Source: Phytoactinopolyspora limicola (GTDB lineage: Bacteria > Actinomycetota > Actinomycetes > Jiangellales > Jiangellaceae). From it: DNA of 64,000 nucleotides. The notes below the pieces were generated by a model. That model had not been told where the DNA came from. It did no database searches and saw only the letters and a list, made by a program, of their open reading frames with translations. Position 1 is the first letter of the stretch. Each line of letters begins with the position of its first letter. Positions 16,822-43,420 of this stretch are shown one piece after another. Position numbers and translations under genes: made by a program. The stretch is from the NCBI RefSeq assembly GCF_011320225.1, contig NZ_JAAOEN010000008.1, forward strand, positions 124,001-188,000, written 5' to 3'.

Positions 16822-17463
16822 CCCCGTTGTGCACCTGATCTCCGTTTTGACGCCTGATCGTTTTCGTGGCGACGATCAGATGCACGGTGGTGGCGACGGC
16901 CAGCGTCGACGTGAGGTAGCCCCACCTGATCGTCGCCACGATGTGGGACGCCTGGTGATCAGATGCGCGAACCGTCGCATGGCGTCCGGTAGCGCATCTG
17001 ATCCTTCCGAGTCGGCACCGTGCTAAGCGGATGCGGCGTTCGCCTGCCGGGCGGATGTGGCGCCGACTTCCCCAGAGGTTTGTCCAGGGTTCACCGGGGC
17101 AGCCCGGTGAGTCAGGCCCGGGGGTGGTGCGTTGGCGGCCTCCACAACTGCGACATTTCACCCACGCCCAACAAGCGGTCAGCGCACCAGGCCTCGTCCG
17201 CCGCTCCAGTCCCTCGTTCACAACGGGCACCCGCGGGCCGCGCACGTCTGCCAAGGGCCATCGCGACGCGATCAGATGCGCTACCGGACGCCAATCGACG
17301 GTTCATGCATCTGATCGCTCGCCGTTCCACATCGCATCCACATCGTGGAGACGATCAGACGCGGCTACCGCGTGTCGACCCTGACCGTCGCCACCACCGT
17401 GCATCTGATCGTCGCCACGAAAACGATCAGGCGTCAAAACGGAGATCAGGTGCACACGGGGGG
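16822..17463. mobile_element. Long inverted-repeat element A with twelve CTGATC motifs
   Basis: The ends GTGCACCTGATCTCCGTTTT (from 16829) and its complement (to 17455) start terminal inverted repeats of about 175 bases. The first 71 bases are perfectly complementary (16829-16899 with 17385-17455) and the rest diverges mildly. Each arm has six CTGATC/GATCAG motifs. Counting from the tip, they lie at offsets 0, 19, 39, 91, 122 and 163 in the left arm and 0, 19, 39, 91, 133 and 174 in the right. The orientation pattern is + + - + - +. A unique centre (about 17004-17269) has no convincing gene. The tips are flanked by CCCC/GGGG. No transposase is inside. It could be a non-autonomous foldback element or a large cruciform/RNA structure. 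Confidence 0.8.
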
Positions 17464-40781: not shown

Positions 40782-42182
40782 TCAGTGCGCGTAGCGGTAC
40801 TGGGTTTGTGCGTTCAGGAGGTCGAACTTGATCCGATTGGCGCTGGGCACACCTTGGAGGCCGGTGAGTTTGAGGACGTCGAGTCCCTTGATCATGTCGC
40901 TGGAGTAGATGAAGCCGTTGTACCAATACGCCGACCATGAACCACCGACCTGGAGTACGTCGGTGCTCAGCGGGCCGCGCTCCCAATAGGCGATCTCGAC
41001 CGGGTTGTCCGGGTCGGTGAACTCCCACACCGACACGCCGCCCTGGTACCACGCCTGCACCATGATGTCGCGGCCTTTGACGGGGACCAGCGAACCGTTG
41101 TGTGCGACGCAGTTCTCAGTGCTCTGCTGGTGGCGAGGGATCTTGTAGTAGCTGCGGAAGACCAGTTCTCGGTCGTCGCCCTCGCCGACGATGTCATAGA
41201 TCGCATTGGCGCCGTGGTGCGGGCCGACGGCTTCGTTGCAGGTGGCAGCCACGCCGCCACCCAACTCATCGGTGAACACCACTCGCTGCGCGTCATTGGT
41301 GAACGTCGCCGAATGATAGAACGCGAAGTTGGCGTCGGTGATGTTGGTGATCACGTACGGATCCGCGGGATCGGTGATGTCCATCAGGATGCCCTCACCC
41401 ATACAGGCGCCGGCCGCGAGATCCTCCTCGGGGAAGACCGTGATGTCGTGGCAGCCCGACGTGCGGGGTGCTCCGCCGTCGGGGAAGAGGATGGGCTTGG
41501 CGATCACCGATGCGTCAGCCGGGTTGTCGAGCGGGACCTCGATGATCGAGATCGAATCGTGCGGCGGCTGGCAGTGGGGGAACACCGGCGCCGGGCCATA
41601 CGACGAGATGTAGAGGTAGATCTCGTCGTTGCCGGTGCCCGGGACGAGCGTGTGGGTGTGCGATCCGCAGTCCGTCCGCACCGACGTGACGTAGTGCGGG
41701 TTGCCGACGTCGCTGACGTCGAAGATCCGAATGCCCTCCCACCCGGTCGGATTGGCCGGCGACGTCGGTGGGCTCCCGCAGACGTCGTCCGTGCGGGGAT
41801 AGTCGACCGACACGAACAGGAGGTCGCCATCCGGGCTAATGGAAACGTCACCTTGCCCGCCAGGACAATGCACCAGTCCAACGACCGTGGGCCGATGCGG
41901 CTGAGTGATGTCATAGATCGTGACTCCGCCGTAACTGCCTTGATAGGCGTAGTTACCCCAGAACGCGATGTCGGTGTGCCAGTCGTTATCGACTGCTTCC
42001 TGCCTCGGCACGTTGGCTACTGATCGGATGTATTTGCTGTGCGACACCTCGTCCACGTCGAGCTCGTCGCTCTGCGCGATTGACGGGCCGGCCGAGCCGA
42101 GCGACATGAGTACCATGGCGACGCCCAGCACGGCCGCCTGTAGTGCTCGACGCGGTCTGCGCCCGAGGAGGGGGGTAGGCAT
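40782..42182 (-). CDS. Secreted LVIVD-repeat beta-propeller protein
   Basis: 466 residues from ATG 42182; GGAAGGAGAG 7 bases upstream decides against the Met at 42218. The signal peptide runs to about residue 37 (SAGPSIAQSD). Repeats of LVIVD type are clear: GGVTIYDITQPHRPTVVGLV, WEGIRIFDVSDVGNPHYVTS, ILMDITDPADPYVIT and VSVWEFTDPDNPVEI. Such proteins form propellers on the cell surface with unknown ligands. Several Cys pairs suggest disulfides. The neighbouring DUF305 gene is a likely partner. Confidence 0.85.
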   Translation of the reverse strand: MPTPLLGRRPRRALQAAVLGVAMVLMSLGSAGPSIAQSDELDVDEVSHSKYIRSVANVPRQEAVDNDWHTDIAFWGNYAYQGSYGGVTIYDITQPHRPTVVGLVHCPGGQGDVSISPDGDLLFVSVDYPRTDDVCGSPPTSPANPTGWEGIRIFDVSDVGNPHYVTSVRTDCGSHTHTLVPGTGNDEIYLYISSYGPAPVFPHCQPPHDSISIIEVPLDNPADASVIAKPILFPDGGAPRTSGCHDITVFPEEDLAAGACMGEGILMDITDPADPYVITNITDANFAFYHSATFTNDAQRVVFTDELGGGVAATCNEAVGPHHGANAIYDIVGEGDDRELVFRSYYKIPRHQQSTENCVAHNGSLVPVKGRDIMVQAWYQGGVSVWEFTDPDNPVEIAYWERGPLSTDVLQVGGSWSAYWYNGFIYSSDMIKGLDVLKLTGLQGVPSANRIKFDLLNAQTQYRYAH

Positions 42183-42328
42183 AAGGCGACTCTCCTTCCG
42201 CTTTGTAAGCAACATCACAATTGCGGCGGAAAGTCACAATAGACAACTGTAGGAAACTCCGAGAATTCTTCCGACGATCCATCTCAGGGCCTAACACCGG
42301 CAGTCATAGGCCATAACCCCAACTGATG

Positions 42329-42843
42329 CCCCCCGTTGTGCACCTGATCTCCGTTTTGCCACCTGATCTTTTTGCTTGGGGCGATCAGGTGTACCAACGG
42401 CGGGTGTCGGCGCGGTGTGGTGCATCTGATCGCGTCCCGTGATGTGGACGCGCGGCGATCAGATGCACGATCGGCGCTTTGAGGGCGGGTTGTGCATCTG
42501 ATCGGCAGCAGGTGTCCGGTCAGCGATCGGTGGCGGGTCCGGCGAGCGGGGTCCGGCGAGTGGGTCGGTCATCGGGGGTCCGGCCGGGGATGTTGTGCTC
42601 GTGGTGTTGGTGCTGGTGCTGGGGTGGCTCGTCGTTGTTCGCGTATCGCGCGGTCGACACCGGGCGTGACGATCAGATGCATCAACTGACCGGCAGGCCG
42701 CGTTGACGCATCTGATCGCCGCGCGTCCGCATGGTGGAGGCGATCAGGTGCAGCACACCGTGCCGGGACGCGTCGTTGGTACACCTGATCGCCCCAGGGA
42801 AAGATCAGGTGACAAAACGGAGATCAGGTGCACGCGCGGGGGG
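42329..42843. mobile_element. Long inverted-repeat element B with twelve CTGATC motifs
   Basis: The same tip as element A (GTGCACCTGATCTCCGTTTT from 42338, complement ending at 42833) and the same plan. Arms of about 165 bases have six CTGATC/GATCAG motifs each. The offsets are 0, 19, 39, 82, 113 and 154 on the left and 0, 19, 37, 80, 110 and 151 on the right, in orientation + + - + - +. The sequence between motifs differs from element A, but the two arms of B still pair with each other. Local hairpins are also possible, such as GTGCATCTGATCGC with its complement. The centre (about 42504-42670) has no gene. Confidence 0.8.
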
Positions 42844-42902: not shown

Positions 42903-43075
42903 GGCTCTTCGGACTTCAGCGGGGTTGTGGGTTCGTTGGACGTTCGTCATGTTGGGAAGCAACCGGCTTGGTGCGGTGAGTCCTCGTTCGATCGGCCCAG
43001 ATGCCGGTTTCCAGCGAGCGTTCAGCGCACCAAGCACCCCGCTGAGATCTGAAGAGCCGGACAAGTGCGCGGCAA
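42903..43075. repeat. Large imperfect palindrome beside element B
   Basis: GGCTCTTCGGACTTCAGCGG near 42902-42922 and its approximate complement CCGCTGAGATCTGAAGAGCC near 43041-43061 begin arms that pair with gaps for about 70 bases toward a centre near 42990. The same arm is preceded on one side and followed on the other by GGACAAGTG. It is a different sequence from elements A and B. No gene inside is convincing. Confidence 0.6.
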
Positions 43076-43143: not shown

Positions 43144-43215
43144 TGGGCGATACTGGGATTGAACCAGTGACCTCTACCGTGTCAAGGTAGCGCTCTCCCA
43201 CTGAGCTAATCGCCC
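43144..43215 (-). tRNA. tRNA-Val (GAC)
   Basis: The cloverleaf starts GGGCGATTAGCTCAG, has the T-arm GGTTCAATCC and the acceptor end ATCGCCC. The anticodon GAC lies at 43183-43181. A CCA end is encoded (43143-43141). Last of three tRNAs in one transcript. Confidence 0.97.
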
Positions 43216-43247
43216 GCGTCGGGTGTGCCGACTGCTGGTGTGCAGCG

Positions 43248-43318
43248 AGGTGGAGACGGGATTTGAACCCGTGTAGACGGCTTTGCAGGCCGTTGCCTCG
43301 CCTCTCGGCCACTCCACC
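43248..43318 (-). tRNA. tRNA-Cys (GCA)
   Basis: Starts GGTGGAGTGGCCGAGAGGCG. The anticodon GCA is in CCTGCAAAG, with the T-arm GGGTTCAAATCCC and the discriminator U typical of tRNA-Cys. CCA is not encoded. Middle gene of the cluster. Confidence 0.97.
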
Positions 43319-43347
43319 GAGGTGAGGCCGACTTAGGCCTCGCTCCG

Positions 43348-43420
43348 AGCGGACGACGGGATTCGAACCCGCGACCCTCACCTTGGCAAGGTGATGCGCT
43401 ACCAGCTGCGCCACGTCCGC
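43348..43420 (-). tRNA. tRNA-Gly (GCC)
   Basis: Starts GCGGACGTGGCGCAGCTGG. The anticodon GCC is in CTTGCCAAG, with the T-arm GGGTTCGAATCCC and discriminator U. CCA is not encoded. First gene of the Gly-Cys-Val cluster. Confidence 0.97.

Follow-up and report, generated by a model that had tools for sequence, protein, structure and literature searches.

Element B, one of two related elements in the window (the whole 64-kb stretch of DNA analysed), is probably a composite element: two copies, facing each other, of an ancient extragenic repeat of the family Jiangellaceae. The repeat unit is one arm of ~165-175 bp bearing six short, non-palindromic sites with the core CRNCTGATC (fuller form about GTCACCTGATCGTYTYC), and the order, orientation and spacing of the six sites are fixed, a step of ~10 bp being the main permitted change of length. 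The overall explanation that we favour, with somewhat more confidence than doubt, joins this composite of ancient arms to a putative binding array, arm-to-arm copying and spread of composites as blocks.

The six-site arm as the repeat unit

Element B forms a large inverted repeat, in line with the matching arms reported in the earlier note: its ends (42329-42437 and 42736-42842) are 85-88% complementary over the outer ~110 bp, and a second, weaker complementary stretch lies further inside (Table 1). The 20-base tip GTGCACCTGATCTCCGTTTTG, correctly described there as common to elements A and B, is present in all four of their arms and in many further arms of the genome. Twelve motifs alike in order, direction and position had also been attributed to the two elements; order and direction agree (++-+-+-+-+-- in both, by the core CRNCTGATC), but the positions do not, as the fourth motif stands at +82 in B and at +91 in A and all sites inward of it shift along. 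That the motifs exceed chance was confirmed by a scan of the window for TGCAYCTGATC (68 matches vs 29 expected) and by 521 exact occurrences of GATCAGRTGCA in the genome of the window (G000; 6.59 Mb, 40 contigs) vs 2 of a reversed control. The extent originally assigned to B covers only one special form, with two arms, of a smaller unit.

Table 1. Features of elements A and B and the neighbours of B, in window positions
Feature	Position	Strand	Basis or remark
Element A	16830-17454	.	twelve-motif plan as in B, long-spacing type (+91)
LVIVD-type gene, leftward	40782-42218		neighbour of B, by its upstream end
Element B	42329-42843	.	two facing arms and ~170 bp spacer
B left arm	42339-42503	+	motif scan and arm architecture
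Left M1	42339-42349	+
Left M2	42358-42368	+
Left M3	42383-42393	-
Left M4	42421-42431	+
M4-M5 conserved centre	42432-42456	+	GCGTCCCGTGATGTGGACGCGCGGC in B; TCCRnnATGYGGAC is the consensus in relatives
Left M5	42457-42467	-
Left M6	42493-42503	+
B spacer between arms	42504-42670	.	non-palindromic
B right arm	42671-42832	-	motif scan, sites read inward from tip
Right M6	42671-42681	-
Right M5	42707-42717	+
Right M4	42742-42752	-
Right M3	42780-42790	+
Right M2	42803-42813	-
Right M1	42822-42832	-
tRNA trio, leftward	43144-43420		neighbour of B

Site offsets within the arm are +0, +19, -42, +82 or +92, -115 or -125, and +154 or +164. Spacing was compared in 167 arms from G000, G004, G011 and G014, which represent three genera. 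Because the arm search preset an M1-M2 distance of 19 bp and a minimum score, the uniformity seen in these two is in part a product of the search. The M1-M3 distance was 42 in 146 of the 167 arms, M4 and M5 were 33-34 apart and M5 and M6 38-39 apart. For M3-M4 a range of 36-59 was searched, so that its two-peaked distribution is not imposed by the search: 149 arms had a distance of 39-41 (104 arms) or 49-51 (45 arms), and none fell at 42-45. A step of ~10 bp corresponds to one helical turn, which suggests that it matters on which face of the helix the sites lie. Six-site arms are mostly single in the relatives, where some two-ended forms are present too, and the ancestral unit is one directional arm without inverted-repeat ends. 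The spacer and inner arm halves of B are of a left type and a right type, both common to other composites.

Rfam covariance models run on the window with gathering scores identified tRNAs only, leaving the element unmatched. A second, unrelated repeat with inverted arms adjoins B at 42904-43034, and stretches resembling it were seen in C5, C12 (two), C37, C38 and C1 of the same genome.

Arm copying or base pairing as possible causes of arm likeness

The earlier note had emphasized that the two arms of B match each other while differing from those of A, and took this as a sign either of selection for a paired structure or of a copying process in which one arm serves to rebuild the other. The sequence GTGTACCAACG is indeed found in both arms of B, but the match is confined to their outer part and the sequence is not specific to B, as it recurs in the arms of other elements (e.g., L089, L091, L093). 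Element by element, the claim holds for A and poorly for B. The arms of A match each other from the tip to ~170 bp. In the comparison among arms, those of A are each other's best match (0.90, rank 1; next best 0.69). The arms of B are 81% identical at the tip, the left arm is 96% identical to an arm of another element, and B's own partner is only seventh among the arms closest to it. With this ranking and a weak breakpoint fit, B is a weak example of arm-to-arm likeness.

Among 25 two-armed elements, all from G000, partner arms were more alike than permuted partners in the tip region (0.824 vs 0.703, P=0.0002), while the inner region showed no such excess (0.579 vs 0.596, P=0.90), so the proposal that arms within an element are more alike stands for the tips and not for the interior. 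The P value for the tips is optimistic, because the permutation treats related composites such as L101/L102 as independent; a version with 27 pairs agrees. A two-rate fit, which places one breakpoint per element, gave identities mostly of 0.92-0.99 on the tip side and ~0.6, equal to background, on the inner side. Breakpoints lie mostly at ~50-170 bp and differ between elements, unrelated ones included; A, L090, L101, L118 and L120 are clear cases. The matched tracts appear to begin at the tip, and their outer start is not exactly placeable within the first 30 bp, which are nearly invariant in all arms.

Because identity is tract-like with element-specific breakpoints, arm likeness favours copying between arms over selection for pairing, and of the two mechanisms originally offered it is the rebuilding one that these tip-to-breakpoint tracts support. 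Template switching is known to homogenise the arms of inverted repeats (PMC8604942) and to create changes that look compensatory (PMC8794818), and sharp, element-specific tract ends are a trace of gene conversion or template switching (PMC8604942, PMC8794818). The elements resemble inverted repeats homogenised by template switching or quasipalindrome correction in having arms identical over contiguous tracts and apparent compensatory changes; they differ in that the described cases are mostly short, close inverted repeats, whereas the matched tips here lie ~400-600 bp apart. Arms would thus stay alike because one serves as the template for the other, through gene conversion between inverted repeats or template switching during replication; alternatively, a whole composite may have been copied after such an event. 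Within the genome, composites would in addition spread or replace one another in blocks bounded by the tips. In the L101/L102 pair, whose composites share 97.5% identity along 611 bp, the ends lie 9-17 bp beyond the outermost motifs.

Selection for a paired structure is not supported, because stem covariation is inconsistent, mismatches are mostly not G.T-compatible and the arms of the relatives compared are mostly solitary while having an unchanged architecture. At the two variable positions of the M2-M3 and M4-M5 stems, paired combinations were about as frequent as in shuffles in each of the four genomes, and one of 16 covariation tests reached P=0.025. In the matched part of the arms, 43 of 156 mismatches were G.T-compatible, a count for which no formal null was computed. 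In one register the M4-M5 centre TCCRnnATGYGGAC did covary to some extent, with relatedness as a confounder, and the base pair adjoining its TCC/GGA core varies freely in the listed G011 sequences.

These results also bear on the idea, which we consider improbable, that arms are kept as RNA or cruciform structures for base pairing, for example as 3' mRNA stabilisers or bidirectional terminators. Their location behind stop codons and between convergent genes (see below) would suit such a role, as would stable hairpins predicted in RNA for M2-M3 and M4-M5 (median energies -14 to -23 kcal/mol) and the ordinary-looking hairpins, noted by eye, that in non-carriers take the place of the arm at the icd 3' end. 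Against this, besides the lack of consistent covariation and of an Rfam match, complementarity just outside the motifs did not exceed a shuffled control (a weak one, in which arm orientations were mixed), loop lengths are conserved exactly, which pairing does not need, and no T-rich tract follows the hairpins. Arms may nevertheless act as terminators, in addition to or in place of a binding array.

Genomic position and distribution within the family

No element of G000 lies inside a called gene. Convergent gene pairs flank 32 of the 46 G000 elements with both neighbours called, whereas ~18% of gene pairs overall are convergent. These neighbour statistics are approximate, as the gene calls come from a simple script. 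Of 79 single arms in G000, G004, G011 and G014, 66 have M1 facing a stop codon, and the median distance from arm start to stop codon is 10-51 bp in the four genomes. Seven genomes (G000, G004, G010, G011, G014, G015, G018) have arms behind sdhB. Behind icd, arms are present in G004, G011 and G014, and decayed remnants in G001 and G000. Because these positions are common to several genera, they indicate that the arms were inherited and elsewhere lost or decayed. Together with the identical spacing in three genera, arms at orthologous positions support the earlier description of the element as actively maintained.

The interval between sdhB and a helicase-like gene is flanked by two arms in three genera (L208, L237, L252). 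The gene within it is similar in G011 and G014 and different in G004, and on account of this difference it was rejected as a candidate trans-acting gene. A search for such a gene among arm-adjacent genes of several species returned housekeeping-type genes only. The G014 arm behind icd (L257 / L222) abuts the next gene, which lacks the first part that this gene has in relatives.

BLAST of B against its own genome returned 136 matching stretches, and G000 contained at least 55 clusters with five sites or more, a minimum because the fetched loci span part of the genome. True copy number may be higher still, since many contigs of this assembly (among them C1, C2, C13, C14, C16, C18, C21, C24 and C28) end inside or beside elements. 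Motif pairs in the 22 family genomes numbered 202 in G000, 95 in G011, 57 in G021, 54 in G004, 36 in G014, 29 in G013, 11 each in G010 and G015 and 9 in G018, with one pair in each of four genomes and none in nine. A strict division into carriers and non-carriers by the M1-M2 pattern was dropped because the pattern misses or nearly misses some arrays, as in G010, G013, G015, G018 and G021.

Beyond the family, a stricter pattern had zero matches in 395 further genomes sampled from the phylum, a looser one gave scattered single matches only, and searches of plasmids and phages yielded no match to the repeat. A pattern match in a viral contig (L285) lacks an array and was attributed to chance, as was a 19-mer of the tip in a Clostridiales contig, where it falls in two paralogous coding-like stretches of 49% GC, again without an array. 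Literature searches, whose coverage was incomplete and which included one query too broad to inform, retrieved no description of these repeats.

Relation to known repeat systems and a putative binding protein

By appearance, the closest known kind of repeat is the BIME (e.g., BIME-2 of E. coli). BIMEs are extragenic, located at 3' ends, built from regularly spaced alternating units, bound by proteins and targeted by insertion sequences (PMC2817692, PMC1525189). The elements described here share extragenic 3' placement, regular spacing and alternating orientation (++-+-+, at fixed spacing), as well as mosaic variants with extra units, invasion by insertion sequences and strongly unequal copy number among relatives. 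They differ from BIMEs in having asymmetric sites of 9-17 bp in a fixed six-site array instead of palindromic units of 20-40 bp. In addition, BIMEs are served by an enzyme of the RAYT (REP-associated tyrosine transposase) type, whereas none is found in Jiangellaceae, the sole family in which these arms were detected.

The dispersed, extragenic, alternating and IS-invaded state of the arms, which recalls BIMEs (PMC2817692, PMC1525189), could in principle mean that they are REPs or REPINs spread by a RAYT, an explanation to which we give almost no credence. Y1_Tnp (PF01797) was detected in 0 of 22 family genomes, compared with 6 of 14 control genomes by the same search, which refutes a RAYT of standard form as the mobilising enzyme. 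Furthermore, REPs are defined by a GTAG or CGTC tag (PMC3733652) and a palindromic unit of 20-40 bp, while the motif here (TGCAYCTGATC / GTCACCTGATC) is asymmetric and carries neither tag. Lacking both a palindromic tagged unit and a RAYT, two defining features of REP/BIMEs, the arms are not classed as such.

IS-like ends (TGTCTCGGGACATCGCTGACGG...) were seen inside arms at ten loci (L092, L094, L099, L105, L108, L109, L116, L125, L129, L262), which lie mostly at contig ends. The insertions repeatedly hit the same points: several lie between M5 and M6, behind GTGTGCGGTAGC, and two between M3 and M4. They resemble REP-targeting insertion sequences. A different hairpin repeat (CGCTACCGCCAGATGG ... 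TGGCGGTAGCG) is nested in or lies beside some arms (L112, L121, L128).

A further alternative, unlikely in our judgement though less so than a role in base pairing, is that the arms are the ends of a non-autonomous, MITE-like element, with the six sites binding a transposase encoded elsewhere now or formerly. Tn7 and Mu, for instance, carry binding-site arrays at their ends, and a likeness to MITEs is apparent in the ~500 bp composites, which in G000 have inverted-repeat ends, no gene, several near-identical copies at unrelated places (such as L101/L102) and discrete ends in such copies. The uneven copy number across the family, whose species range from 0 to >200 motif pairs, would fit as well. 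However, the ancestral single arm lacks inverted-repeat ends, positions common to genera imply long residence, and ectopic recombination between resident arms can also move blocks. MITEs also have a parent transposon, of which none was found here by a transposase search covering Y1_Tnp, and the three loci read contained no transposase gene between arms. Finally, visual inspection of eight junction pairs gave no evident sign of the target-site duplication typical of MITEs, a result compatible with ectopic recombination as well as with an unusual transposition.

The best reading of the elements is as a BIME-like array for a putative DNA-binding protein. The array would provide binding sites for a sequence-specific protein that assembles, in BIME-like fashion, on one phased stretch of DNA; we infer protein binding from conservation and phasing only. 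A more ambitious version, which we put forward tentatively and regard as possible rather than probable, is an undescribed chromosome-wide system confined to the family, in which the putative protein would act on helically phased six-site arrays behind genes, among them sdhB and icd of core metabolism, with recurrent loss or decay in some species and tip-anchored copying of arms that keeps two-armed arrays alike.

These elements offer a clear case of a long inverted repeat whose seemingly compensatory changes are better explained by arm copying than by selection for pairing, and per-element breakpoints make the choice between the two testable. For the Jiangellaceae, these findings describe a family-wide repeat in which the spacing of sites is strictly fixed and for which no enzyme or binding protein is known. 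Because the type strain of Jiangella gansuensis appears to carry the repeat, with ~36 motif pairs, the missing protein is open to experimental search.
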